In this document: positions 1,754-19,502 of the stretch, in pieces
Layout of the letters: the number at the start of each line of letters is the position of its first letter
How positions within the stretch are numbered: the stretch's first letter is position 1
Origin: a virus
Virus record (IMG/VR): IMGVR_UViG_3300007519_000622
Span: 1 to 20,129 of that record
Length of the DNA: 20,129 bases
Direction: 5' to 3' (one strand)
Notes under the pieces: model-generated
Database searches by the model: none
Seen by the model: the letters and a program-made list of their open reading frames with translations, nothing else
Told to the model about the DNA's origin: nothing
Made by a program: the position numbers and the translations under genes

Positions 1754-3553
1754 TTACTGTCTCGACCACGTGACAGTTAGGGTTGTACCAGAAGCGACGG
1801 ATACTGCAACCTCAGCATTCGGATCAAGGACGTCTACGTCAGCGTCAGCGTAAGCTGTCGCGCCACCTGCCAAGCCTGCATTGCCAGAGGTGCCGCCCAT
1901 TCCGGGCCACGTGTTGGCAGCTGTCGCGCCGGGATTGCCAGCTGGGCCTGCCGTGCCGGGATTGCCAGCGGAGCCTGCGGAGCCTGATGTGCCGGGGTTG
2001 CCAGCTGCAGCGCCCGTTCCAGATGCGCCGGGGTTGCCGTTGTAGCCTGCGTTGCCGGGGTTGCCTGCGCTGCCTGAGGTGGCACCATTGCCGTTTGCGC
2101 CGACGTTGCCGCCTGCGCCAGTGTTGCCATTGGAGCCTGCGTTGCCTGCGTTTCCGGGGTTGCCTCGACCACCACGGCCACCTGTTCCGCCTGCGGGACC
2201 GCCGTTGCCGCCTGCGCCGCCATTTCCGTAGGGCGCAAAGCTTCCGTCTGGTGATCCAGTGTTGCCATTCGTGGCTGACTGTCCGGCGCCACCATTGCCG
2301 CCACCGCCTCGCGCACCACCATTGCCTCGCGCACCAGCAGAACCGATATTTCCTGACGCGCCAGTATTGCCGGGGTTGCCAGAGTTTCCTGCGTTGCCGC
2401 GGGCGCCGCCGGGACCACCGTTGCCATTGGTGCCAGCGTTGCCTGTACTGCCGGGATTGCCAGCTGAGCCGCCGTTTCCCCGGACGCCATTGTTGCCGGG
2501 ATTGCCGGGATTGCCTACGCCACCGGTGGTTCCGCCGTTGCCGCGGGCGCCGCCGGGACCGCCTGCACCACCTGTGCCGCCTGTGCCTTTGGTCCCGCCT
2601 GTGCCACCTGAGAATGTGTGCAGCGAGCCAAAGGTCGTGTCAGCGCCTGCCGCGCCATCTGTACCGTCTGGGCCTGTAGAGCCTACGTTCCCTGAAGCGC
2701 CAGTGTTTCCTGCGGTGCCTGTATTGCCAGCCGTACCGGGATTGCCTGCTGTCGCGCCTAAGCCATTGGTTCCTACGTTACCGTTGGCTCCTGCGCTGCC
2801 TGCGCTTCCAGACGTTGCACCATTGCCGCCAGCGCCACTAGAGCCAGTGTTGCCATTGGTGCCAGCGTTGCCGGGATTGCCGGAGCTTCCGGCACCACCG
2901 GGATTTGCGTTTCCATTTGAACCCACATTACCGTTGTTTCCGAGACCACCAGAATTTCCGGGGCGCGCGGCTACGAATGCCGCATTGGCCGAGTACGTTG
3001 ATGCTGATCCACCATTGCCGCCAGCGCCGCCTGACGGACACGCGTTACCAGACGAGCCGGGGTTGCCCGGTACATAAGAGTTTTTACTAGCATTTGACAG
3101 GCCACCGCCACCGCCGCCACCACCACCGCCTCTGCCCGTGTTGCCAGAGGTGCCGGGATTGCCGGTGCCACCGTTGCCGCCAGCGCCGCCATTTCCCCGG
3201 ACACCATTCGAGCCGGGGTTGCCAGAATTACCAGACGCGCCAGAGTTTCCTGCGTTGCCGCGGGCGCCGCCGGGACCGTTTGTGCCGGGATTGCCTGCGT
3301 TGCCGGGGTTGCCTGATGTGCCACTATTGCCACCGGGGCCAGCGACACCGGGATTTCCTGCGTTGCCGGGATTACCTGCGCCGCCATCGTCTCCGATGCT
3401 GCCGGGATTGCCAGAGTTTCCTGCATTGCCCTTACCATTGATGGCGACTTTTTTGATGCCGGGCGGCGTCTGGAAGTTTCCGGGGGCATTAAATACTTGG
3501 CTGCCGCCGGGGTTTAGAGGCTTGAACCTGTGGGACGTTCCAATGATGGGCAT
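1754..3553 (-). CDS. Collagen-like glycine-rich phage adhesin or fibre protein, 599 aa
   Basis: Residues about 40 to 560 are nearly all glycine triplets, mostly G-N-P, G-N-A, G-N-S and G-G-x, with a few short breaks such as a ten-glycine run before LSNASKNSYVPG and an aromatic patch near TFGSLHTFSGG. The N-terminus (SQVFNAPGNFQTPPGIKKVAI) looks like a beta cap before the repeats. The C-terminus ends in a repeat-free strand segment, EVAVSVASGTTLTVTWSRQ. Collagen-like or polyglycine-II repeats are established in phage fibres and tail-tip adhesins, where they form elongated trimers or sandwiches that bind host surfaces. GGAG six bases before the ATG supports the start, which lies three bases after the preceding stop. 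A virion adhesin is the best call; the exact attachment point is unknown. Confidence 0.85.
   Translation of the reverse strand: MPIIGTSHRFKPLNPGGSQVFNAPGNFQTPPGIKKVAINGKGNAGNSGNPGSIGDDGGAGNPGNAGNPGVAGPGGNSGTSGNPGNAGNPGTNGPGGARGNAGNSGASGNSGNPGSNGVRGNGGAGGNGGTGNPGTSGNTGRGGGGGGGGGGLSNASKNSYVPGNPGSSGNACPSGGAGGNGGSASTYSANAAFVAARPGNSGGLGNNGNVGSNGNANPGGAGSSGNPGNAGTNGNTGSSGAGGNGATSGSAGSAGANGNVGTNGLGATAGNPGTAGNTGTAGNTGASGNVGSTGPDGTDGAAGADTTFGSLHTFSGGTGGTKGTGGTGGAGGPGGARGNGGTTGGVGNPGNPGNNGVRGNGGSAGNPGSTGNAGTNGNGGPGGARGNAGNSGNPGNTGASGNIGSAGARGNGGARGGGGNGGAGQSATNGNTGSPDGSFAPYGNGGAGGNGGPAGGTGGRGGRGNPGNAGNAGSNGNTGAGGNVGANGNGATSGSAGNPGNAGYNGNPGASGTGAAAGNPGTSGSAGSAGNPGTAGPAGNPGATAANTWPGMGGTSGNAGLAGGATAYADADVDVLDPNAEVAVSVASGTTLTVTWSRQ
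2378..3277 (-). repeat. 39-bp exact direct repeat pair within the collagen-like gene
   Basis: Bases 2378-2416 and 3239-3277 are identical, 861 bp apart and in the same reading frame. On the minus strand both encode GGPGGARGNAGNSG. A shorter version of the same block lies at about 2534-2560. Much of the gene between about 1860 and 3450 is a degenerate 9-bp repeat (one Gly-X-Y triplet per unit). Exact copies this long point to recent duplication or recombination inside the gene and make it a likely length-variable locus and a likely place for assembly errors. Confidence 0.85.
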
Positions 3554-5991: not shown

Positions 5992-7920
5992 TTACTTCTG
6001 CCTCCGTTGTGGGGCTTGGCGTTGAGGCACGAGGTTGCCTTTTTCGACTTGGCGCTGGACGTCCTCGTTTGGTTGGACCGACGCGCCTCTGGCTGCTTCG
6101 CGCATGGCCATCTCTTGGGATGGGCTGTCGCCCTTGGATTGGCGTTCTTCCGGGGAAATCCTGAACTGGTCAAGATCGCTGACGCCGAGCGCACGAATGG
6201 CTTCTTCAGCGATCATGCCCATCTTGTATTCCATGTTGAGGCCCGTCTCGCTCATGATCTTAAGCATGTTCATCCATGTTTCGGCATTGCGGGTCGGCTC
6301 GAGCGGGAGCGTGCCATCAATGACGAGGTAGTCGATGTTGCCTTGGAGATCGCTGATGTCGTAGTCGATGTAGCCGTCTTTGACTACGGGGGCCAGTTGG
6401 GAGGGCATCTGGTCTTGGTCGATGCGGATGCTGCCTTCCATGGCGATGGCGTCTTGGATATTACCGACCATCATTCTGACCATGGGGCGTACAGTGGTGG
6501 CAGAAATAATTCGGCTCAAGACACCGAGACGTTGGCTGCCAAGCTGGGTAAGGCGCTGGATTTCTGTGGCGGTCCGGACGGTTGCCGTGGGCATGCCTTG
6601 TTGGGCGTCACTGGCGGCACTTACTCTTTGCTTCATGTCGGACATGGCCGCGATGTCGTTCCAGTGGCCGCGGGTGACGTCTGGGATTTTCGCAATATGA
6701 ATGCCGTCGCCGGGCTTGGAGCCGGGAAGCGTTCGCACCACGCCCCAAGGGTTCCGGTCGATCAGGTCAGGAATGTTCACTTGGGTCGGGTCAGCAAAAA
6801 TAAGGTTGCTCAGGGCTGCCTGCACGTTGTCCACACGGGAACGCAGGAGCCAAGTGGCGATGTCGTGCATTGGCAGGATCAAGTCATAGAGACTTTGGCT
6901 GTAGGTCTTGTGGCTGTCGTGGTAGAGGCCACCGATCACATTGGGGAACTGACGCCCATAAGGGTTCATCTGGCACCGGATGCAGACTTTTTCGTCTAGG
7001 ATCGTGATGACCAGCCAGATTTGATCGATGCTTGTGACGCCGATCTCGTAGCCAGAGAGGCGCACCCAGAACTCGTCTGTGACACGCGAGTTGCCCAGCA
7101 TGAAGTGCTGATCGCCCATGCCGCGCTGATTGGGAGCCGACGGGTCAATGTTGAGACCGCGACCCTGCTCAGCGTGAAACCTGTGAGCGCTCCAGCCATT
7201 GTTGGGGGCCGAGGTGCGGTTGCGCAGTTCAGGATGCTGCTTGAGCTTCGGGTAGAGCTGTGAGTTCAGGAGCGCATTGAATGAGCTGTGCTTCACGAAC
7301 GTAATGAATTGCGCATTGTCCCAGTCGCCCCAACTGACGCGGGGATCAGGGAAACAACGGCGCGGGTCACTGTTGACGATCTGGTTGGTGTTGTTCTTGG
7401 CGTCCCACAGAAGCTGGGTCGGCGCAAAACCGTAGCGTACGCAGTCCAAGAGCATCTGGGCCAGTCGTGCTTCGCCAGCTGTGCGGCGCATCTGAGAGTG
7501 CACCACGCGCTCTAGGATCATACCGTTCTGGCGGGACTGGCGGTTGAGACCTTCCAGCTGGAACATTGGATTGCGGCCCGCAAGGGCTGCCATGAGGTAA
7601 GTGAGAACTGTGTCGGCCACTGCGCGCGTATCAGCAATGACTGCCTTCTCGCGGAATTGCGTGGCATGTGGATCAACATAGACGTCGTGAGCGCGATCGG
7701 CTTCTTTCCAGTGGTCGTAGCGTCCACTGATTTTCTGGTAGCTCATCTCTGTGCACGCCTTGACGTACTGGACGATCTTGTTTTCTTCGGCCTCGGTGAG
7801 ATCGCCGGAGATGTCCTGCATGTCCACGAGCTTATTGACCAAGCGCGACAGGTCAACGACCATGCCGTCCCCGCCCAAGGCTTGGTAGTTGCCACTGTAG
7901 TTTCGCTTGGTGTCTGACAT
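5992..7920 (-). CDS. Portal (head-tail connector) protein, 642 aa
   Basis: The portal forms the dodecameric ring at one capsid vertex through which DNA is packaged and ejected. Support comes from its place 41 bases after the large terminase gene, its length within the range for podovirus/P22-type portals, and its layout: an N-terminal helical part with KISGRYDHWKEADRAHDVY, a mixed middle, and a helical segment near residue 450 (TATEIQRLTQLGSQRLGVL) resembling the stem/crown helices of portals. The C-terminal 60 residues are polar and Gln/Arg-rich, probably disordered. The start is the first ATG after the terminase stop; the upstream site is only a weak AAGG. The precise portal family cannot be fixed by eye. 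Confidence 0.88.
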   Translation of the reverse strand: MSDTKRNYSGNYQALGGDGMVVDLSRLVNKLVDMQDISGDLTEAEENKIVQYVKACTEMSYQKISGRYDHWKEADRAHDVYVDPHATQFREKAVIADTRAVADTVLTYLMAALAGRNPMFQLEGLNRQSRQNGMILERVVHSQMRRTAGEARLAQMLLDCVRYGFAPTQLLWDAKNNTNQIVNSDPRRCFPDPRVSWGDWDNAQFITFVKHSSFNALLNSQLYPKLKQHPELRNRTSAPNNGWSAHRFHAEQGRGLNIDPSAPNQRGMGDQHFMLGNSRVTDEFWVRLSGYEIGVTSIDQIWLVITILDEKVCIRCQMNPYGRQFPNVIGGLYHDSHKTYSQSLYDLILPMHDIATWLLRSRVDNVQAALSNLIFADPTQVNIPDLIDRNPWGVVRTLPGSKPGDGIHIAKIPDVTRGHWNDIAAMSDMKQRVSAASDAQQGMPTATVRTATEIQRLTQLGSQRLGVLSRIISATTVRPMVRMMVGNIQDAIAMEGSIRIDQDQMPSQLAPVVKDGYIDYDISDLQGNIDYLVIDGTLPLEPTRNAETWMNMLKIMSETGLNMEYKMGMIAEEAIRALGVSDLDQFRISPEERQSKGDSPSQEMAMREAARGASVQPNEDVQRQVEKGNLVPQRQAPQRRQK

Positions 7921-7961
7921 GGTCTGTGTTTTGCCTTATGTGGGGGTCTTTGTCGTCCGGG

Positions 7962-10272: not shown

Positions 10273-10616
10273 GTGGTTGTGTATCCTGTTTGTTTGGAAG
10301 TTTCAAATTTTGCTCGCTACTAGAGAGGCACCCGTGACGTGAGATGGCCGATGGGACCCACGGCGGGGCCGGGCCTGCCCCCCCCATGCGCAAGAGAGCG
10401 CATATTCGACGACGGTGGCACAAATGGGGCACAGCCCAAGGAAAAAAGCCAATGAAAACAAGGTTTTGCTCTCCCCTCCAAGGGGTAATCCACTGGCCTC
10501 TCGCGTTTCGGGCGCGTGAAGATCCGCGCATGCGAGGGCCTCTGGGAAAACCTTGGCGTCATGAGGGAAAAATACCTCGCGGGCGGGCTATGTGTCGTCC
10601 GCGGACAGGCGCGCAC

Positions 10617-10639
10617 TCCCCAAAGGGGAGAGGGGGTTT
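10617..10639 (+). promoter_or_regulatory. Copy A of a duplicated 23-bp G-rich motif
   Basis: The motif is TCCCCAAAGGGGA, one variable base, A, then GGGGGTTT. It matches the element at 14814-14836 at 22 of 23 positions and lies 62 bases before the 131-aa gene. It contains a small inverted repeat (TCCCC, AAA, GGGGA) and is followed by another G run (GGGG at 10641-10644). Because both copies lie in non-coding DNA just before rightward genes, a phage-specific promoter, operator or RNA leader element is likely. No function can be assigned from two copies. Confidence 0.55.
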
Positions 10640-10645
10640 TGGGGT

Positions 10646-10669
10646 GGATCGACCAATCCCGGTCGGTCC
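10646..10669 (+). other. Hairpin following motif A
   Basis: GGATCGACC (10646-10654) pairs with GGTCGGTCC (10661-10669), nine pairs including one G-U, around the loop AATCCC. There is no following U-tract, so it is not a standard terminator. It lies between the 23-bp motif and the ribosome binding site of the 131-aa gene. Copy B of the motif is likewise followed by a hairpin. Confidence 0.6.
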
Positions 10670-10701
10670 GGCATCCATGCACACACTCACAGGAGACACG
10701 C

Positions 10702-11097
10702 ATGACAAATCCATTCAAAGGCGCTACGCTTGCAGACATCGCAGTAGCACTCAACGGCGCATCCGCGAAGGACGTGTTCGCAGTGCGCAAGGCCGCGCTC
10801 GAAGTCCTCGCCCTACGCAGCGAAGCTGCGAAGCCCGGATCGTACAAGCAACGCCGCACCGATATCGCCATCGCGCAAATCAAGGCGGGCCAAGGCGTAG
10901 ACGCTAAGGCCGCTTTCGAGCAAGCCAAGGCGTCGCCCAAGGCGGCGCCTGTTGTGAAGGCTGCGAAGCAGCCTCGCATCAAGGCCAGCGCGAAGTCACG
11001 CACCAAGACGCGAATCCCTGCTGAGGTGCGCTCCGCGTTGGACGAACTCACGCCTGAGCAACGTGCTGGCGTGATGGCTCTGCTCGGCGCGAAGTAA
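10702..11097 (+). CDS. Basic Ala/Lys-rich hypothetical protein, 131 aa, first gene of right arm
   Basis: AGGAG seven bases before the ATG at 10702 fixes the start; the frame is open further upstream but that part runs through the structured non-coding region. The protein starts MTNPFKGATLADIAVAL, has a helical middle (VRKAALEVLALRSEAA, then YKQRRTDIAIAQIKAGQG), a basic Ala/Lys segment (about 70-110) and ends LTPEQRAGVMALLGAK. The middle faintly recalls the two-helix pattern of ribosomal protein uL29, but the resemblance is weak and may be chance. The charge suggests nucleic-acid binding. A strong terminator follows 29 bases after the stop, so it may be expressed as a single-gene transcript from the motif-A leader. 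Function unknown. Confidence 0.88.
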   Translation: MTNPFKGATLADIAVALNGASAKDVFAVRKAALEVLALRSEAAKPGSYKQRRTDIAIAQIKAGQGVDAKAAFEQAKASPKAAPVVKAAKQPRIKASAKSRTKTRIPAEVRSALDELTPEQRAGVMALLGAK

Positions 11098-11125
11098 GCG
11101 CGAGTCAACACACACACAAACCTTG

Positions 11126-11151
11126 GGCCACCCTTCGGGGTGGCCTTCTTT
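11126..11151 (+). terminator. Intrinsic terminator after the 131-aa gene
   Basis: GGCCACCC (11126-11133) and GGGTGGCC (11138-11145) form eight perfect pairs closed by the very stable tetraloop C(TTCG)G, followed by TTCTTT. This is a good Rho-independent terminator or attenuator. The next gene's ribosome binding site begins only about 14 bases later, so some read-through or a nearby promoter is needed for downstream genes. Confidence 0.8.
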
Positions 11152-11175
11152 GCGCTTTCAATTCGGGAGTTTCCA

Positions 11176-11382
11176 ATGCGCACTTTGTCCATCCACAACG
11201 TCCTTGCAGCAATCGACGACGATTTTCAACCCGTCAACACGGTGTCCGACGACGACACCTACAACACGTTTGACGCCGACGTAGAGCTTGCCATCGCGCA
11301 AGTGTTCGGCATCAAGCCAGACGTTGCAGGCCGCGGCCTCGACGGCCTCGTGTTGTTCGCCCCAAAGAAAACACGCAAATAA
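11176..11382 (+). CDS. Small acidic hypothetical protein, 68 aa
   Basis: The ATG at 11176 has GGGAG six bases upstream. An in-frame GTG at 11140 lies inside the terminator stem and is rejected. The product starts MRTLSIHNVLAAIDDDF, is acidic in its first half (SDDDTYNTFDADVELAIAQV) and ends in a basic tail (APKKTRK). No family, membrane segment or signal peptide is seen. It lies between two hairpins and may be expressed with the following small genes. Function unknown. Confidence 0.8.
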   Translation: MRTLSIHNVLAAIDDDFQPVNTVSDDDTYNTFDADVELAIAQVFGIKPDVAGRGLDGLVLFAPKKTRK

Positions 11383-11492
11383 TGCGTCGTCTTGCACCCA
11401 TCATCACGATGGAAATCACCCGGTGGCCAATGGCCATCGGGTTTATCGTGTTTTGGGCGCTCGCAATTACATCAACCAACAACGAAGGATAA
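11382..11492 (+). CDS. Possible 36-aa single-pass membrane peptide
   Basis: The stop of the 68-aa gene and an ATG overlap as TAATG, and the frame gives MRRLAPIITMEITRWPMAIG then FIVFWALAITSTNNEG. It has positive charge at the N-terminus followed by a hydrophobic stretch (about residues 16-30) that could span a membrane. Termination-reinitiation at TAATG could translate it without its own ribosome binding site. Against it, a strong inverted repeat (11418-11442) followed by T-rich sequence lies in the middle, so the region could simply be a terminator. The following gene's AAGGA overlaps the last codons. Confidence 0.35.
   Translation: MRRLAPIITMEITRWPMAIGFIVFWALAITSTNNEG
11418..11454 (+). terminator. 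Terminator-like hairpin after the 68-aa gene
   Basis: ACCCGGTGGCC (11418-11428) pairs with GGCCATCGGGT (11432-11442), eleven pairs with one G-U, around a three-base loop. It is followed by TTATCGTGTTTT, a broken U-tract. It starts 36 bases after the stop of the 68-aa gene and lies within the possible 36-aa reading frame. It could terminate, attenuate or stabilise the mRNA. Confidence 0.6.
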
Positions 11493-11499
11493 CCAGACC

Positions 11500-11784
11500 A
11501 TGCCAAAGTACTACATTGCAGCAATGCGCGGACGTTGCGAGATCATGGGGTCACACGATGGCCAAGCCCTGATCGAGACCAACAAAAACCCGCGTGATGC
11601 GGTTGCGTGGCAGCTGTGCCTGCAAGGCGAGTTTGACGGTGGGCCAGCGGTCAGTGCCCGAGCGTCTCACTGGCGTCTTGTGGACGAAAGCAATCGCATC
11701 ATCGCGATTGCGCTCAACCCGTTGATGGCGGGGATTTACACCGCCGAAGACATCAATGACAAAACGCAGGCGAATGCCGCCTAG
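11500..11784 (+). CDS. Hypothetical protein, 94 aa
   Basis: The start MPKYYIAAMRGRCEI is chosen because AAGGA (11485-11489) sits ten bases upstream; the frame is open earlier but runs through a hairpin. The protein has MRGRCEIMGSHDGQALIET, a Trp-containing middle (AVAWQLCLQGEF, then SHWRLVDESNRIIAIAL) and a short polar tail. It reads as a small mixed alpha/beta soluble protein. I do not recognise a family. It is followed closely by the 67-aa gene, 25 bases after its stop. Confidence 0.8.
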   Translation: MPKYYIAAMRGRCEIMGSHDGQALIETNKNPRDAVAWQLCLQGEFDGGPAVSARASHWRLVDESNRIIAIALNPLMAGIYTAEDINDKTQANAA

Positions 11785-11809
11785 CGTACCACTGCACAAG
11801 AGGCGGGCA

Positions 11810-12013
11810 ATGCGCAGACGCGTGTTGTCCGCTTTGGCGTTGGAGTGCGTGGCAGTTCTGCGCGCACACACGACGCATCCAGAATACGAGGAAGCCAGAC
11901 GCGAATGTATGCGTTTCCTCGCCAAAGCGCATGACATATGGGGCGATGATGCCGAACGTGTCGTGAGGGAAGTCCTTGGGCGAAAGCCCACAACACCGGA
12001 GAACTACACATGA
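11810..12013 (+). CDS. Small helical hypothetical protein, 67 aa
   Basis: GAGG at 11800-11803, six bases before the ATG at 11810, selects this start. In-frame ATGs at 11756 and 11774 would add a basic leader (MTKRRRMPPSVPLHKRR) and overlap the previous gene, with poorer sites. The product is Arg-rich and helical (LSALALECVAVLRA, then YEEARRECMRFLAKA, then DAERVVREVLG). The stop overlaps the next start as ATGA. No family is recognised. Confidence 0.75.
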   Translation: MRRRVLSALALECVAVLRAHTTHPEYEEARRECMRFLAKAHDIWGDDAERVVREVLGRKPTTPENYT

Positions 12014-12420
12014 CCCCTGATCAACCACGCAACCCAATCGGTTACGTCCCGCAGACCGCAGAGCAACTCAAGGTGCTGCTTCCAGACTTCGTGTTGGCCA
12101 GACAGTGGATGGGCGAGCGGTTTCTCGCACAAGACCGCCACAAGTTGTCCAGACAGCGGATTATCGGCACTGGCTTCCTCAACATGGGCCCGAGGCGGTG
12201 TCCAACAGCAGACGAAATCGACGAGTTGCTCGAGGCGCGTATTGCGGGAGAGAGCGGCACACGTCGCCTTAAAAATCTGACATACGGCAAAGACTGGCAG
12301 GAAGACGCCGAGTACATGCTTGAGGCCATTCAGTTCCTCGACGACGACACTGTGATCAACGTAGATGCGAAGACGCTTCATGTCTGGATCAGATGGACTG
12401 AACTTTGGCGTGCACGATAG
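12010..12420 (+). CDS. Hypothetical protein, 136 aa
   Basis: The ATG overlaps the preceding stop (ATGA) and has GGAG eight bases upstream. The protein is soluble-looking, with an N-terminal helix (TAEQLKVLLPDFVLARQWM), a basic central part (HKLSRQRIIGTGFLN), a helix (TADEIDELLEARIAGE) and an acidic C-terminal half ending TLHVWIRWTELWRAR. There are no Cys residues except one near the centre and no membrane segment. I recognise no family. A hairpin follows 30 bases after the stop. Confidence 0.85.
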   Translation: MTPDQPRNPIGYVPQTAEQLKVLLPDFVLARQWMGERFLAQDRHKLSRQRIIGTGFLNMGPRRCPTADEIDELLEARIAGESGTRRLKNLTYGKDWQEDAEYMLEAIQFLDDDTVINVDAKTLHVWIRWTELWRAR

Positions 12421-12449
12421 CCAATGTGTCACGCTTATGCTACACAACT

Positions 12450-12475
12450 GAGGCAGGCCAATTCCGGCCTGTCTC
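12450..12475 (+). other. Intercistronic hairpin without U-tract
   Basis: GAGGCAGGCC (12450-12459) pairs with GGCCTGTCTC (12466-12475), ten pairs with one G-U, around the loop AATTCC. The sequence after it (GCACTATTACC) has no U-tract, so a simple intrinsic terminator is unlikely; an mRNA-stabilising or processing element is an alternative. It occupies the 87-base gap between the 136-aa and 208-aa genes. Confidence 0.65.
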
Positions 12476-12507
12476 GCACTATTACCAACACAAGAAAGCA
12501 TACCATC

Positions 12508-13134
12508 ATGACCAAGAAGAAAATCACCAGTGAAACAGGCAATCGTGCCTCAACGCCAGAGGAAATCAAGTCTGCGCTCATATTCAAGGGCGTGATGTTC
12601 ACGATCACTATGTTTGCCAAGAGCGACAAGCGCAACCTCGTGATCAAGCACGAGGAACAACACATCGTAGGCATCGTGCCGGATGCCTTTGATGAGGCAA
12701 CGCAACTCGCGAAGCTTGCCGATCTGTATCCTATTGAGTTCGGAGCGGCAAACGACTGGCGTCTCATGGAACACGAGGAAATCGTTCGCATCATCTTGGA
12801 TGAAAACCACGTGAAGGCATTTTCTGCATCGGATATCAACAACCCACGCATATCCGGCAATGACCCTGTGTCCATGATCATTGCCGGGTTTATTCCGCCC
12901 GAACTCAAGACGATGCTCAAGGAACTTTATGACAGCGAGATCGCAACATTCATGACTGGATGCCGTGATCCTGAGTGTCGTTGTGGCGGTGAAGACGCCG
13001 AAATCCAGCTGCTCGGAAGCGACCTACTCGAACTCATAAAGCGGCGCGAGGCCGCTGACTGGACCGAGGAATCCCATAATGAGTGGACGGACTACATTCG
13101 TGATCGTGCCAAGGAAAGGGCGACCAAGCACTGA
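12508..13134 (+). CDS. Hypothetical protein with a Cys cluster, 208 aa
   Basis: The start MTKKKITSETGNRAST is preferred. An upstream in-frame ATG at 12424 would translate through the hairpin, and the ATG at 12508 has the A/C-rich leader style of its neighbours, with a weak AAGAAAG. The protein has a beta-containing first half (ALIFKGVMFTITMFA, then NLVIKHEEQHIVGIVP), an acidic middle and, near residue 157, GCRDPECRCGG, three cysteines that could bind a metal or be a lone knuckle. The C-terminus is charged and helical. I do not recognise a family. Function unknown. Confidence 0.85.
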   Translation: MTKKKITSETGNRASTPEEIKSALIFKGVMFTITMFAKSDKRNLVIKHEEQHIVGIVPDAFDEATQLAKLADLYPIEFGAANDWRLMEHEEIVRIILDENHVKAFSASDINNPRISGNDPVSMIIAGFIPPELKTMLKELYDSEIATFMTGCRDPECRCGGEDAEIQLLGSDLLELIKRREAADWTEESHNEWTDYIRDRAKERATKH

Positions 13135-13176
13135 CCCTCAAACCAACCCCACCAACAGTCACACAGGAAACACACC

Positions 13177-13842
13177 ATGACTGACAAGAAAACCAATACC
13201 TTTAACCGTACCACTGGACGCAAGACCATCATGGTCGAAGGCACACGCTCGTCGCTTCTCGACAGACACAAAAGACACAACGGGGCAGACGAGGCAGGCA
13301 ACAAGCCGGGCAGCAACGAGGACATGCTCATTCGGGACCTTCCCGAAGACACGCGGCCCGGCATTCGCTACTCAACCGAGTTTTACCTGCACAATCCCGG
13401 CACAAAGCGGGCCTCCTACTTCCAGATGTCGCATGACGTTGCGACAATTGATGTGCCGGAAGACTTATTGGAGGCGATGGCCTACATCAAGAAAAACTAC
13501 AAGATGGACATTGAGAAAAAACTCGGCGGCCTCGAGGGCTGGCAATGGATGGACCAAGCAACCATCACTGACTTCATCCAAAAGCAAGACGGGCTATGTC
13601 TACCGCACATGGGCAAGCCGTCGGAAACAAATGCCAGTGGGGCAATGGACCCTGTTGAAGCAGGCTATTATGCGCTCAGGAACGCCTCGAGAGAGAACCC
13701 GGAAATGTTTGCCGAGGCGCTTCGATTGATGCTGGGCAAAGTCTTCGGTAAAGGCTCGACCACTGTCTTGGCACCCGAAGGCATGACAGCCGAAGACGTT
13801 GCCAACATGCTGGCCGACAAAAAGAAACCGACCACGTACTAG
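13177..13842 (+). CDS. Hypothetical protein, 221 aa
   Basis: AGGA about nine bases before the ATG supports the start. The N-terminal 65 residues are polar and probably disordered (TNTFNRTTGRKT, HNGADEAGNKPGSNED). The middle contains PGIRYSTEFYLHNPGTKRAS, then VPEDLLEAMAYIKKNYKM and GWQWMDQATITDFIQKQ. The C-terminal region is helical (EAGYYALRNASRENPEMFAEA) and ends in a Lys-rich tail. No conserved motif I know is present. An intrinsic terminator begins 26 bases after the stop, so this gene probably ends a transcript. Confidence 0.87.
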   Translation: MTDKKTNTFNRTTGRKTIMVEGTRSSLLDRHKRHNGADEAGNKPGSNEDMLIRDLPEDTRPGIRYSTEFYLHNPGTKRASYFQMSHDVATIDVPEDLLEAMAYIKKNYKMDIEKKLGGLEGWQWMDQATITDFIQKQDGLCLPHMGKPSETNASGAMDPVEAGYYALRNASRENPEMFAEALRLMLGKVFGKGSTTVLAPEGMTAEDVANMLADKKKPTTY

Positions 13843-13867
13843 CATGGGAAAGTTCTCACAACTGATG

Positions 13868-13899
13868 GAGGGGGCGCTCGCGAGAGCGTTCCCTCTTTT
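13868..13899 (+). terminator. Strong intrinsic terminator
   Basis: GAGGGGGCGCTC (13868-13879) pairs with GAGCGTTCCCTC (13884-13895), twelve continuous pairs with two G-U wobbles, around a GCGA (GNRA) tetraloop, followed directly by TTTT. This is a textbook Rho-independent terminator, 26 bases after the 221-aa gene. Its presence argues that the next protein starts downstream of it, at 13967. Confidence 0.85.
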
Positions 13900-13966
13900 G
13901 TCGTTGCCTTCCGAACGCGAGGGTGATCCGCTTATTGTTCCAACCAAGAAAGGAAAACCATACAAC

Positions 13967-14431
13967 ATGGACAAGGACTATGTGCCTATTCGTCCACCCG
14001 ATGTCGTCGAAGACAAAGATAATCTCTGGCGCATGGCGTTGGACGCTGCCGAGGAACAGGCAAGCCTCATGTTCCAAGACAACGTGCGTCTCAAGCGTGA
14101 ACTCGACGAGCTTCATGCCACTATGGCAAGAAAAATGCACACATACGAGGCTGTGCTGCTGACCTACCGCAAGTTCGTCGAGACTGTGCGGCGCATGCGT
14201 CAGATGATCAGGGTCACACCTGAGACCAAGCACAAGCACGTCGTCAAGCTGGGCAACAAATACTACGAAGGCCCCGTTGTCGATTGGGCCTTTGAATTCA
14301 TTGACGCATTGGACTACTCGGCCAAGGTAACACAGGCCCTTGCGTCCATTCAGCTTCATGCTTCCCGTGAGCCTGATACCAACCCACCCAACCCAAGAGA
14401 GAGAGATACCACCGATGAAACTTCTCAGTAA
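13967..14431 (+). CDS. Coiled-coil hypothetical protein, 154 aa
   Basis: The start MDKDYVPIRPPDVV is preferred to ATGs at 13844 or earlier, because those would translate through the terminator at 13868-13899. AAAGGA lies roughly a dozen bases upstream of 13967. Residues about 18-81 form one long charged helix with heptad-like hydrophobics (LWRMALDAAEEQASLMF, VRLKRELDELHATMARKM), then a Lys/His-rich turn (TPETKHKHVVKLGNKYY) and a second helical segment (WAFEFIDALDYSAKVTQAL). The tail is Pro/Arg/Thr-rich. The end overlaps the membrane-protein gene by 17 bases, suggesting coupled expression; the two could act together at the membrane. No family recognised. Confidence 0.78.
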   Translation: MDKDYVPIRPPDVVEDKDNLWRMALDAAEEQASLMFQDNVRLKRELDELHATMARKMHTYEAVLLTYRKFVETVRRMRQMIRVTPETKHKHVVKLGNKYYEGPVVDWAFEFIDALDYSAKVTQALASIQLHASREPDTNPPNPRERDTTDETSQ

Positions 14432-14780
14432 ATTCAAGGCGTTCATGTCACAAGACGTGTGGCAGGACACCGTGCATCCGATTATGGTCATGGGTGCGCT
14501 GATCGCTTACATGATGATCTATCTGCCGCTGTTCTTTGTCAGCGTGATTGTGGTTGTTATACTAACTGTGCCCAAAGCCATTGGCTATGTGTGTGGACGT
14601 TGCGCACAAGGCATTCTTAGCGCCCTCGGGTTCTTCATAGAAAAGCCCCTCGATTGGGCCAAGTGTGAAGTCAACAGGTACAACCTGTTGGACGCCGACT
14701 ACATGACCGAGAGTCTCTTGGCTGAACGCGAAGAACCCAAGTGGCTGGATATAGCCAGTGTGAAGGGGAAGCTCCCTTAG
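14415..14780 (+). CDS. Membrane protein, 121 aa
   Basis: The start MKLLSKFKAFMSQDVW lies inside the end of the coiled-coil gene; upstream in-frame starts would overlap that gene much more. Residues about 22-56 are strongly hydrophobic (IMVMGALIAYMMIYLPLFF, then VSVIVVVILTV) and could form one long or two short membrane helices; another hydrophobic stretch lies at about 65-76 before a polar C-terminal part (residues 77-121). No signal peptidase site is apparent. Size and topology do not clearly match a holin, and there is no lysis gene nearby. An inner-membrane protein acting early, for instance in superinfection exclusion, is possible but unproven. Confidence 0.8.
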   Translation: MKLLSKFKAFMSQDVWQDTVHPIMVMGALIAYMMIYLPLFFVSVIVVVILTVPKAIGYVCGRCAQGILSALGFFIEKPLDWAKCEVNRYNLLDADYMTESLLAEREEPKWLDIASVKGKLP

Positions 14781-14813
14781 TATGGCGCACACCTGCGCAC
14801 ACGCACCCGCAAA

Positions 14814-14836
14814 TCCCCAAAGGGGATAGGGGGTTT
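14814..14836 (+). promoter_or_regulatory. Copy B of the duplicated 23-bp G-rich motif
   Basis: It is identical to 10617-10639 except for one base (T instead of G at 14827). It lies 68 bases before the CobS-like ATPase gene, in the only non-coding gap of this part of the arm (14781-14904). As in copy A, a hairpin follows shortly and then a good ribosome binding site, here AAGGA. The equal placement suggests a shared control element for two transcription units. Confidence 0.55.
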
Positions 14837-14843
14837 ATGGTCG

Positions 14844-14869
14844 GTGGCCCCTCACAGTGGGAGGGCCAC
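14844..14869 (+). other. Hairpin following motif B
   Basis: GTGGCCC (14844-14850) pairs with GGGCCAC (14863-14869), seven perfect pairs with a 12-base loop that can pair further if one C is bulged. No U-tract follows. Its position relative to the 23-bp motif resembles the hairpin at 10646-10669, although the sequences differ. Confidence 0.55.
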
Positions 14870-14904: not shown

Positions 14905-16956
14905 ATGGCTTACGGAAAGATTTTCAAAATGGCGGTCGCACCCGATGTGCGGGCCGCCGCAAACCAGATGGAGCAATTCATAGACAGGCGGTCAGCTGGC
15001 CGCGCTGGTTTCAGTAAGGCGTGGGACGTCTTCGATCAGTACATAATGGATACGTTCGCTGCCGGGCTTCCTGATCCTGTTGCTCATGCGCATGCCGACA
15101 TGAGTGCGTGGTGGAACAGTGCGTCTCCGTCTTGGGCCGAAGAGTATGGCGTCTATGATATCTCGACGTCCAAGCTGGCCTCATACATCGGCTCTCCTTA
15201 CATTGCGCTGGTCCAGATCGCCGCGATGGGCATGCTCATTGATGCCAGAGAGCAGGGCAACAAGACGCTCATTGATATGAGCGAATTCTTCTCGAACTCG
15301 GCGACCATGTCGCTTATGTGCATGGACAACGCACTCGAAAGCACGTCAGGAAAGCGTACCTATGGCCTGCCAGACATCCTTCCCCTGAACGAAGGCTTCA
15401 CGGGTTATCCCTTCACACACTTGGTGACGGGCTGGCTCAAGAATAACTTCGGTGTGGACCTTGGCGCTCCACCCCGTGGCTTCAAGGGCATCCTTGAAGA
15501 AAGCACAAAGCCAGTCAACACGAGTGGGCTGGGGTATTCTACCTCGCCGATGGCACTCGGAATTATCTCTGCTCCAATCACCAAAGGAACTTCCATGCAA
15601 GACGACGTTAAGAACTCCGCATCTGACAACAAAGCTATGATCCCAACCGAGAACACAGCCAATGAGGGGCTGGCCGAAGCGTCTAGGCTGAAGGCGCAAA
15701 TGGAGACCATCGCTGTCTCCCTCAAGGGTCTTGATCCTTCGCTCAAGAGTGCCATTGATGGCATGCTCAAGGCCGCTGGCATCGGGGACGTTGCGCTTCT
15801 CACTGAGGCTGTCGAGACTGCATCGCAGTCAGCTGGCCTCATCAAGCTGGCCGAGGACAAAACATCCACTGTTGAGGCGGAACTTATCTCTGCGAAGACA
15901 CGGCTTGCCAAGCTTAGCTCTGTTGCATCTGCGCCTTCGGGGCCAGTGAAGGTGGCGGGACACGGTGATATTCCTGATGGCGATATTGTCCTGAAGAACG
16001 CAGCCGTCGTGTTTGATATCCCCAAGGATGCGGCGAAGCTGTTTGACTTCGATATTCCGTGCGGTGAATGGGATCACCCGCACCCGCATGTGCCAGCTAT
16101 CGACCACGACTACGTGTTTGATGCAGAAATCCTTGTGACCATGCTGATTGCGATCCGCAAGAACCAAGTGCCATGGCTCAAGGGTCACACAGGTACTGGC
16201 AAAACCACGATGATCGAGCAAATCTATGGTCGCCTGAATATCCCTGTGTTCCGGGTCAACCTCGACAGTGATATCTCACGGGGCGATCTCGTTGGACGTG
16301 AGGTGCTCACCACTGATGCGGCTGGCAAGACCATCACCAAGTTCATTGATGGGGTTATCCCGATGGCGATGCAGCAGCCTTGCTGCCTGCTCTTGGATGA
16401 GATTGATGCGTCCCGGCCTGATCTTGGGTTCGTGCTTCAGCGTCTCACTGAGGGTGCGGGCTTCATGCTGCTTGAAGATGGCGGACGTACCGTCGAGCCG
16501 CATCCTTACTTCAGGCTGGCCGCTACTGCCAACACCAACGGACGTGGCGACGAGACAGGGCTGTACTCAGGTACTCGTGCGCTGGGTGTGGCGTTACTTA
16601 ATCGCTTCAAGCCCTTCATTGACGTCGATTATATGACGCAATCAGAGGAAGAAGCGTTGATAGCGGATCGTGTGCCCGGCATCCCCTCGGATACCGCCAA
16701 GCGCATCGCTTCCTATGCCAGTGAGCACCGCAAGGCGTTCATTGCATCTAGTGTGACGCTTCCGAACTCGCCACGTGACACCATCGCTATGGCGTGGGCG
16801 TTCACTGACTTCCATATGTTCGGACCTGATCGTGCCATGCAGATGGCATTTAAGTATTGCGTTCTGGCGGCAGCTGATGCAGATGATCGTCAGGTTCTGT
16901 TGGGGCTGGCACAACGTGTGTTCCCTGACAAAGTGACCAAGGGCCTCAAAGCCTGA
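14905..16956 (+). CDS. MoxR/CobS-type AAA+ ATPase with long N-terminal extension, 683 aa
   Basis: The C-terminal 300 residues match CobS of aerobic cobaltochelatase and the wider MoxR group: Walker A GHTGTGKTT (427-435), VNLDSDISRGDLVG (451-464), Walker B CLLLDEIDA (494-502), sensor-1 region LAATANTNGRGDETGLYSGT (538-557) and a candidate arginine finger at R567. Such ATPases form hexamers that work with VWA partners to remodel proteins or drive metal insertion. CobS is about 330 aa; here about 400 residues precede the ATPase, with no family I know, including a helical part at about 255-350. AAGGA six bases upstream supports the start. An internal Met231 (15595) with AAAGGA before it may start a shorter form. 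The CobT-like partner follows. Confidence 0.92.
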   Translation: MAYGKIFKMAVAPDVRAAANQMEQFIDRRSAGRAGFSKAWDVFDQYIMDTFAAGLPDPVAHAHADMSAWWNSASPSWAEEYGVYDISTSKLASYIGSPYIALVQIAAMGMLIDAREQGNKTLIDMSEFFSNSATMSLMCMDNALESTSGKRTYGLPDILPLNEGFTGYPFTHLVTGWLKNNFGVDLGAPPRGFKGILEESTKPVNTSGLGYSTSPMALGIISAPITKGTSMQDDVKNSASDNKAMIPTENTANEGLAEASRLKAQMETIAVSLKGLDPSLKSAIDGMLKAAGIGDVALLTEAVETASQSAGLIKLAEDKTSTVEAELISAKTRLAKLSSVASAPSGPVKVAGHGDIPDGDIVLKNAAVVFDIPKDAAKLFDFDIPCGEWDHPHPHVPAIDHDYVFDAEILVTMLIAIRKNQVPWLKGHTGTGKTTMIEQIYGRLNIPVFRVNLDSDISRGDLVGREVLTTDAAGKTITKFIDGVIPMAMQQPCCLLLDEIDASRPDLGFVLQRLTEGAGFMLLEDGGRTVEPHPYFRLAATANTNGRGDETGLYSGTRALGVALLNRFKPFIDVDYMTQSEEEALIADRVPGIPSDTAKRIASYASEHRKAFIASSVTLPNSPRDTIAMAWAFTDFHMFGPDRAMQMAFKYCVLAAADADDRQVLLGLAQRVFPDKVTKGLKA

Positions 16957-16972: not shown

Positions 16973-17045
16973 CCCGCGCCACACTGATAAGGTGGTCCGC
17001 GGGGTTCGAGGCTCCGGCTCTTGAAAAGCTGGAGCCTCCCGAACC
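16973..17045 (+). other. Two tandem bulged hairpins between the CobS-like and CobT-like genes
   Basis: Hairpin 1: CCCGCGCCAC (16973-16982) pairs with GTGG (16992-16995) and CGCGGG (16998-17003), leaving TC bulged on the 3' side. Hairpin 2: GGTTCG plus AGGCTCCGGCT (17003-17019) pairs with AGCTGGAGCCT (17027-17037) and CGAACC (17040-17045), leaving CC bulged on the 3' side. Both have six basal pairs, a two-base 3' bulge and an upper stem. No U-tract follows. They may control how much of the second gene is made, or stabilise mRNA ends. Confidence 0.65.
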
Positions 17046-17081
17046 TTCCCAATATGTTCAATGTAATATGAGGTAATTGAT

Positions 17082-19502
17082 ATGGCTAAGGCCGCATTCA
17101 AAGTGCAGACTGCTGGAAAAGTTTCTGGCTCTGCGCTGATACACGAAATCAGGGAGACATCAAAGGTTTTCTCCCGTGATCATGGCATCAAGGTGCAGAT
17201 CGGGGGCGGTGCACAAGGCTCACGTGCAGGCTCAACGGACGGCAAGACAGTTGTTTTGCCTGACGTGCCGCTCGGCGTGCAGTATGACCCGCACGAAGTC
17301 TCTGTCATGCGTGGTTACGTTGACCACGAGGCATCGCACAAAAGGCACACGGATTTCAAGCTGCTTGAGGCTTGCAAGGGCAACAAGTGGTTCGATTTGA
17401 GCGAGCTTCACCCGCTGTTTATGCCGGTGGCCAATGCGTTGGAAGACATGCGCGTCGAAGAACTCACCACCCGTGAGTACGCTGGGTCCAAGTATAATCT
17501 GCGGGCCGTTGCCGAGGACGTTGCTCAGAATTTCTTGGACAAATATGCTGGCACCGACATTGGACGCCAGATAGCTGCGGTCCTGCCGCTTGCCGTGACA
17601 TGGGCCGGTCGCGAAGACATGGGATATAATTCTCCCGTGATGCGTGACTGTCTGGCGAGCCTGCCTGCCGGGCTGCCTGAGGTGGCCAAGGAAATAGTTG
17701 AAGAAGCCAAGACACGTGGCATGAATTCAACGTCTGACGTGCTTCAGTTGGCGCTTGATACCATCAAAAAGTATGGCTTGGACTATACACGGTCGGAAGC
17801 CGAGATCGAAGAACGGGCACGGGAACGTGAGCGTCAGAATTCCTCACGCAAACAAGACTCAGGTGCCAAGGGAAGCGGTAGCGGTGGCGAAGGCTCAGGC
17901 GGTGGCTTAGGCGAAGGCGAAGGCTCAGGCGGTGGCTCAGGAGAAGGCTCAGGCTCAGGAGAAGGCTCAGGCTCAGGCGAAGGCTTAGGCTCCGAAGGCG
18001 GTGGCGAAGGTGGCCGCGGCGAAGGCTCAGGCTCAGGCGAAGATGGCGTCGGTGAAGACGACATTGAAGGCTCCGAAGGCGGTACGGGTGGCGACACACG
18101 GACAGTTCAGGTCTCTGAGAAAGAGGCTGGCACTGGTATTGGTGGCGAGAGCGAGCGAGACGACGCAACCGAGGGCGCGACTGATGCTGATGGCATGGCC
18201 TCACAGGTAGCGTCCATGTCTGAGTCGTCTGGAACCGCGGGCATGGGCGGTGAAAGCGATGCTGGCATCAATGGTGCAGGTCGTGGCAATGGCGCAGGGT
18301 CCAACGCTGGAACAAAAGCGATGGGCCGTGACAAGATTTCCAATGCGAGCATCTTGGATAGCTCGATTGACCAAGCCATGAACGGTCTGGCTGATCGCAA
18401 GCGCACTGAAATCGGCAGCAAGGACCGTGGATGGGGCGAGCCCGATGCCAACGGACGGACTGTCGAGCACTACATTGCCCCGGCCATGGAGTTTGATGCG
18501 TATGTCACGCGCGACATGGCCAAGGGAAAATGGGGTCAGGAGCCGAAGCACGAGTCCAATATACACTGTGCCAAGCTGTATTCCATGGCGATGGCGTCGG
18601 CACGTGCCAGTGGTGCGTACCAACGTCTGAAGACGACGACTGCCGTGGCCACCAATCGGATGCGCAAAAATCTTGAGGCTGCGTTGCTCTCCAAGAAAGA
18701 TCGCATCTGGCGTGGCGGTTACGAAGACGGCTCGCTCAATACAAAGGCGCTGTCCAAGGCGATGACGGGTTCGACTGCCATCTACAAAAAGCGGTCCGAA
18801 GCCGAAGACTTTGATACGGCGGTGCTCATTGCGGTGGATGCGTCGGGGTCAATGAGGGGCAAGCGTGCTGTCGCTCAGCAATGTCTCATTGCGTTGGCCG
18901 AAGTGTTCGATCGCATTGGTATTCCCTTTGCAGTAACAACGTGGAACACGGATGCGCTTGGGTCTAACAAGTCTGAGAAAACTGATTGGGTTGCCGCCCG
19001 GGCAGCGTTCTATGAGTCCATGCGCGCCGCTGGGATTTACCCGACGCATACACGGGTCGATCCGCTGACTGTGTACGAACTCAAAGGCTTCGGGGACACG
19101 CTGAAGGCAGCTGAGAATTCTCTGGCTGGGTACGAGCACTTGGTTGGCGGTGGTAACACTGATGCTGATGCTGTGCTGGCGTCTTTCCAACGTCTCTTGA
19201 TGACGCGGCCTGAGAAACGCAAGGTGTTTATTGTGCTGAGCGATGGTGCCACCTGTGACACTGTCTCTCATGATGACAGCTCGAAGTTCGGGAGACTTAA
19301 CTTTGTCTGTCGTGAGCTTGAGGCGCAGTGCGAGCTGATCGGCATCGGCATCATGGATCAGAGCGTGAAGAAACACTACAAGAATTGGGTGGTCACGCGC
19401 TCGCTCGAAGAACTGGCTGGTGCCTGCATGAAGCCTATCTCAAGGATGCTCTTGGGTGGCAAAATCTCTGGCACTGGCAAGAAGCCACGCAAGATTGCGT
19501 GA
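17082..19502 (+). CDS. CobT-like protein with HExxH motif and C-terminal VWA domain, 806 aa
   Basis: The N-terminal 250 residues hold DHEASHKRHTDF, an HExxH motif (H82-H86), and NALEDMRVEE (118-127), whose acidic residues could be a third metal ligand, as in the zincin-like domain found before VWA-like domains (DUF2201-type proteins). Residues about 260-340 are a flexible acidic Gly/Ser/Glu linker. The C-terminus is a VWA domain with a full MIDAS: DASGSM (586-591), GGGNTDAD (T693) and VLSDG (D721). VWA partners of MoxR ATPases bind substrate or metal; CobT does so for cobalt chelation. The ATPase gene lies 125 bases upstream. GAGG eight bases before the ATG supports the start. No CobN is seen, so a chelatase is not established; a protein-remodelling or protease-like system is an alternative. 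Confidence 0.92.
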   Translation: MAKAAFKVQTAGKVSGSALIHEIRETSKVFSRDHGIKVQIGGGAQGSRAGSTDGKTVVLPDVPLGVQYDPHEVSVMRGYVDHEASHKRHTDFKLLEACKGNKWFDLSELHPLFMPVANALEDMRVEELTTREYAGSKYNLRAVAEDVAQNFLDKYAGTDIGRQIAAVLPLAVTWAGREDMGYNSPVMRDCLASLPAGLPEVAKEIVEEAKTRGMNSTSDVLQLALDTIKKYGLDYTRSEAEIEERARERERQNSSRKQDSGAKGSGSGGEGSGGGLGEGEGSGGGSGEGSGSGEGSGSGEGLGSEGGGEGGRGEGSGSGEDGVGEDDIEGSEGGTGGDTRTVQVSEKEAGTGIGGESERDDATEGATDADGMASQVASMSESSGTAGMGGESDAGINGAGRGNGAGSNAGTKAMGRDKISNASILDSSIDQAMNGLADRKRTEIGSKDRGWGEPDANGRTVEHYIAPAMEFDAYVTRDMAKGKWGQEPKHESNIHCAKLYSMAMASARASGAYQRLKTTTAVATNRMRKNLEAALLSKKDRIWRGGYEDGSLNTKALSKAMTGSTAIYKKRSEAEDFDTAVLIAVDASGSMRGKRAVAQQCLIALAEVFDRIGIPFAVTTWNTDALGSNKSEKTDWVAARAAFYESMRAAGIYPTHTRVDPLTVYELKGFGDTLKAAENSLAGYEHLVGGGNTDADAVLASFQRLLMTRPEKRKVFIVLSDGATCDTVSHDDSSKFGRLNFVCRELEAQCELIGIGIMDQSVKKHYKNWVVTRSLEELAGACMKPISRMLLGGKISGTGKKPRKIA
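17875..18060 (+). repeat. Low-complexity Gly/Ser/Glu coding repeat in the CobT-like gene
   Basis: The DNA is an imperfect array of GGCTCAGG-type units (GGC GAA GGC TCA, GGC TCA GGA GAA), with period mainly 18 bp, encoding GSGEGS. It forms the linker between the HExxH and VWA domains. Canonical CobT proteins also carry an acidic linker before the VWA domain, but the near-identical codons here indicate expansion by slippage or recombination. Confidence 0.8.

Follow-up and report, generated by a model that had tools for sequence, protein, structure and literature searches.

Hairpin sites in phage early transcripts

The early unit of phage lambda has the order pL-nutL-N-tL1. Lambda-type sites are repeated at a second early unit, and their hairpin is common within a phage and different between phages. 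The early leaders of phage HK022 carry put, which consists of two stem-loops, occurs at two sites per genome and requires no phage protein (PMC9378689). The early promoters of phage N4 each consist of a short stem and a loop of 3 nt (PMC4496689).

The locus compared here with these systems lies in a 20.1-kb viral fragment (IMGVR_UViG_3300007519_000622, positions 1 to 20,129), hereafter the window (i.e. the whole stretch of 20,129 nucleotides that was analysed). The left arm (- strand) encodes portal, large terminase and tail genes; the right arm (+ strand) carries small genes followed by genes for a CobS-like AAA ATPase (14905-16956) and, 3' of cobS, a CobT-like protein (17082-19502). Portal and terminase are 71% and 59% identical, respectively, to those of Roseobacter phage CRP-810, and homologous portal, large terminase and CobS/CobT genes in conserved order place the window among the CRP-810-type phages, which have this genome plan and the element described below in common with it. 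The family of CRP-810 was described in PMC11288001, from the main text of which the words promoter, terminator and RNA polymerase are absent. Other relatives comprise two contigs of 62-64 kb (G002 and G003) and about 80 more contigs. Two relatives came from bacterial genome assemblies, one of which, a Poseidonocella scaffold (L124), is consistent with a prophage. A CobS protein search of viral contigs returned no relatives.

A two-hairpin element upstream of early genes

An earlier note had reported two copies of a 23-mer, each located shortly before a start codon and followed by a hairpin. The copies (TCCCCAAAGGGGA-N-AGGGGGTTT) were found exactly as described on the + strand at 10617-10639 and 14814-14836, and their ends are separated by 63 and 69 nt, respectively, from the start codons (10702 and 14905). 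The pattern TCCCCAAAGGGGANAGGGGGTTT had these two exact matches in the window as compared to an expectation of 0 from 100 shuffles, and no further match with three or fewer mismatches was present on either strand of the window. The 23-mer itself also forms a hairpin (i.e. TCCCC-AAA-GGGGA), while the hairpin previously noted after each copy (i.e. H2) starts 7-8 nt downstream. The complete element consists of H1, whose stem of 4-7 bp is closed by a C-(G/A)AA-G triloop, then a short linear stretch as spacer and finally H2. In copy 1, H1 (CTCCCC-AAA-GGGGAG, 10616-10630) includes the start of the 23-mer, the spacer (AGGGGGTTTTGGGGT, 10631-10645) contains its conserved 3' part and H2 (GGATCGACC-AATCCC-GGTCGGTCC) occupies 10646-10669. 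Copy 2 has the same arrangement, with H1 (ATCCCC-AAA-GGGGAT) at 14813-14827, the spacer (AGGGGGTTTATGGTCG) at 14828-14843 and H2 (GTGGCCC...GGGCCAC) at 14844-14869. A search of both strands of the window for C-RAA-G hairpins of at least 5 bp detected just four, namely the two H1 copies and two inside the gene after copy 1.

The suggestion of a third, degenerate copy at 10475-10490 did not survive inspection: the small hairpin at 10473-10485 (CCCCT-CCA-AGGGG) has a different loop, is not followed by H2 and differs from the pattern by more than three mismatches. Two other structures were examined and discarded. A short upstream ORF starting after the spacer is conserved in neither start codon nor frame, and an indel displaces it between L051 and L052, which are closely related. 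In copy 2 of the window, the 5' arm of H1 could alternatively pair with AGGGGGTTT, but this does not hold generally.

In many relatives, GTCGTCCG is conserved shortly 5' of the H1 of copy 1 (10594-10601 in the window, + strand). This site (10594-10600) is the reverse complement of the 7-mer GGACGAC, which is present at 7952-7958 on the - strand of the window and at 14978 of L011. The 7-mer recurs on the late strand between the terminase and portal genes of many relatives; in CRP-810 there are 10 occurrences on the late strand and three on the other.

Distribution and within-genome conservation of the element

A scan of relatives, as proposed in the earlier note, revealed that the 23-mer is the core of this larger element. 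Of the 16-18 loci inspected, nearly all have H1, spacer and H2 ahead of the first early gene; this arrangement extends to at least eight lineages beyond the window, among them the isolate CRP-810 and, probably, one prophage. The spacer is roughly 7-17 nt long in the relatives, H2 varies in sequence and H1 lies 67-109 nt before the start of the first gene. H1 is degenerate in L042/G009. Two tandem H1-like hairpins stand before the first gene of G003 (L022, 19492 and 19580) and of the Poseidonocella locus (L124, around 6400-6500). At least four genomes, namely those of the window, G002, G003 and CRP-810, have an extra copy ahead of cobS, and G005 and G006 have one at a position consistent with this location; no copy was found before cobS in G009, G010, G011 or G013. 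An Rfam search gave no match to the element at the gathering score of any family. The sole Rfam hint lay far below threshold, and a CRISPR-repeat mimic, considered in passing, was set aside.

Copies within one genome are alike in H1 and the spacer or flank but have unrelated H2 sequences, whereas H1 and flank differ between genomes. The sequence common to the copies is CCCGAAGGGACTTC in CRP-810 (three occurrences) and CCCCGAAGGGGTT in G003 (four occurrences). Such likeness within a genome and change between genomes is the pattern expected of a trans-acting reader, and it bears on the possibility of a factor-independent antiterminator RNA, in which the two hairpins would bind host RNA polymerase directly. 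The layout resembles that of HK022 put, which works without a phage protein (PMC9378689), in having two stem-loops at the starts of early units, at least two copies per genome and a terminator downstream. However, put spans about 70 nt with bulged stems and little sequence between them, whereas H1 is short and variable in sequence between phages, the linear spacer is long and the genome-specific H1 suggests a phage-encoded reader, for which there is an apparent need here. A put-like RNA is rated as distinctly improbable.

Evidence for structure at the RNA level

Pairing in H1 was maintained across lineages. In the alignment of this stem, 94% of cells were paired as compared to 74% after shuffling, and the covariation score was 0.571 against 0.189 for shuffled alignments (reached in 0 of 500 shuffles) and at most 0.235 when the stem was slid; since many rows entered the alignment through a search for this hairpin, the test favours pairing. 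Rows found by position and not by hairpin search were CRP-810 copy 1, L051, L064, L091, G011 and L124. When both hairpins were aligned together, H2 was put in the wrong place, and covariation was therefore scored on H1 alone. For H2, 54 G-U pairs were present in the sense-strand fold as compared to 23 in the antisense fold, which argues for conservation at the RNA level. The sense fold was also the more stable in 15 of 19 cases (z of -2.1 versus -1.1).

Of the functions put forward earlier for the repeat, a promoter, an operator or a structured 5' leader, the leader is supported by the compensatory changes in relatives and by the H2 G-U pairs. The best explanation, judged from comparison of sequences, is that early phage mRNAs carry a structured RNA element at their 5' end, with the 23-mer as its core. 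A site acting in DNA, be it an operator palindrome bound by a phage regulator or an N4-type hairpin promoter, is considered unlikely. The arms of H1 form a perfect inverted repeat around 3 central nt, and its short stem and 3-nt purine loop are those of the promoters of the N4 virion RNA polymerase (PMC4496689), but the purine loop of N4 lies on the template strand and RAA here on the non-template strand. A search for a phage RNA polymerase recognised no N4-like virion enzyme in the giant virion proteins of the relatives, and none is annotated in CRP-810. The N4-type promoter was thus rejected, as far as the relatives allow, and the earlier proposal of a phage promoter is not supported. An operator would leave the fixed orientation, the one-sided conserved flank and H2 unexplained; these features, the H2 G-U pairs and the hairpins within coding sequence are more easily accounted for by RNA.

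As DNA, C-GAA-G triloops are highly stable. The region of copy 1 adjoins the terminase operon, and the hairpins could form in single-stranded DNA and serve replication or packaging where early and late genes meet, close to the terminase genes. Against this stand the copies before cobS, kilobases away, the sense-strand bias of the in-gene hairpins and the G-U pairs of H2, and such a role appears very improbable.

The first early gene and its internal hairpins

Copy 1 is followed by the first early gene (10702-11097, + strand), encoding a candidate RNA-binding factor of 131 aa with a net charge of +13. Across lineages this gene has 116-180 codons, and its product is net-positive in 18/18 cases, usually Lys/Arg-rich and basic but barely so (+1) in some lineages. 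The structural model for the window protein (mean pLDDT 72.5) predicts a helical domain joined by a disordered, Lys-rich linker to helices at the C terminus. Family searches with this product gave no match, and fold searches no significant match.

Both of the remaining C-RAA-G hairpins of the window are C-GAA-G hairpins inside this gene (CGCAGC-GAA-GCTGCG, 10816-10830; AGGCTGC-GAA-GCAGCCT, 10958-10974; + strand). Sixteen first genes together had 26 C-RAA-G hairpins with stems of 5 bp or more on the sense strand, as compared to 1.65 expected and a maximum of 6 in 1000 codon shuffles; these genes are related, so that the counts are not independent, but hairpin positions vary between lineages. 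C-GAA-G was the sole strongly enriched triloop (18 versus 0.83). Totals for four- and five-base loops were also above the null, in part because they include the same hairpin read with a wider loop, as C-CGAAG-G. No gene other than the first one has two or more C-RAA-G hairpins on its sense strand in nine genomes; the first genes of CRP-810, L026/L027/L034 and G011 have no in-gene hairpins. The first broken pair of the in-gene stems is A-C far more often than G-U, and a constraint on RNA as against one DNA strand is therefore not proven for these hairpins.

These observations give some weight to regulation of mRNA stability or translation, the main rival to a nut-like site and a possible, if doubtful, explanation. 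The leader element and in-gene hairpins would govern how stable the first mRNA and that of cobS are, or how well they are translated. The autoregulator that binds C-RAA-G would be the first gene product, or else a host protein; the terminator behind the gene would merely yield a short abundant mRNA, with leaky termination feeding the downstream genes. The in-gene hairpins would fit binding or protection at the mRNA level, as would the usually basic product and the long leader between H1 and the start codon. H1 and H2 are, however, far from the ribosome-binding site, making direct occlusion unlikely, and the same element before cobS is not explained by this reading alone.

A terminator behind the first gene and possible read-through

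An intrinsic terminator (GGCCACCC-TTCG-GGGTGGCC followed by TTCTTT, 11126-11151, + strand) lies behind the first gene of the window. A hairpin and T-run occupy the equivalent position in all 16 lineages inspected (16/16 loci), 6-40 nt after the end of the first gene, the weakest T-run being that of the window itself. Strong terminators are few in these genomes; the one in this position in CRP-810 is among three on its early strand. The second early gene (11176-11382, + strand) starts close behind the terminator, and in 8/14 lineages the next start is 17-36 nt past the T-run. This leaves no room for a promoter in between, so that the genes behind it require either read-through or a promoter within the first gene. 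A promoter-like site (10/12, with TG before the second hexamer) is located at 14536-14563, about 250 nt 5' of copy 2, and none was found before copy 1. Copy 2 follows the stop codon of the preceding gene by about 30 nt, so that no promoter need be close to it.

We tentatively favour, at somewhat less than even confidence, a nut/boxB-like RNA site that is read by a phage RNA-binding factor and controls read-through. A phage-encoded factor, probably the first gene product, would recognise C-RAA-G hairpins in the nascent transcript and change the behaviour of host RNA polymerase or of the mRNA. Most likely, transcription would read through the terminator that follows the first gene, and through later ones, with the copy before cobS acting as a second loading site and the in-gene hairpins as extra binding or autoregulatory sites. 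As in lambda N/nut, a small hairpin in the early transcript, here with a covarying stem, comes before a small first gene with a basic product, which is itself followed by a terminator; the site recurs at a second early unit, and the hairpin sequence is phage-specific. The likeness is one of layout. The lambda boxB loop is a GNRNA pentaloop whereas the element has a C-RAA-G triloop; H2 belongs to the element here, and hairpins recur inside the first gene. Inspection by eye found no boxA-like GCTCTT within 50 nt upstream of H1. In neither sequence nor fold does the first gene product resemble N, and in place of an N-terminal Arg-rich RNA-binding peptide the model predicts a helical N-terminal domain with a basic motif around K49/R52. 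The lineages with a barely basic product or no in-gene hairpins, the degenerate H1 of L042/G009, the genomes in which cobS has no copy before it and the location of copy 2 close behind another gene also count against the nut-like reading.

A more specific version of the favoured read-through model, in which we place only limited confidence, is an undescribed RNA code: a phage protein would read C-(G/A)AA-G hairpins in the leader and in its own gene, switching early transcription past the terminator, and the in-gene hairpins might be under selection overlapping the protein code. If read-through is controlled in this way, the element would be an early gene-expression switch of the CRP-810-type marine phages, which are widespread but little studied, and one more RNA antitermination or leader system outside the lambda type. 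CRP-810 is an isolate, and with its host would allow such a switch to be examined. Independently of this, hairpins lying within a coding sequence are unusual.

Other features of the window and its relatives

A gene at 1754-3553 (- strand) of the window encodes a collagen-like, glycine-rich repeat protein that matches tail fibre families, and the CobT-like gene contains a long Gly/Ser/Glu-rich repeat linker (17860-18100, + strand). The cobS-cobT gap of the window has a large hairpin lacking a T-run (16990-17060, + strand); a C-GAA-G hairpin is present in the matching gap of G002. One giant virion protein, 3536 or 3077 aa long, is encoded in G002 (43444-54054, L020) and G003 (42165-51398, L024); in CRP-810 it is divided among several genes (gp34-gp36, L010). 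This giant protein contains HExxH-like and ADP-ribosyltransferase-like stretches.
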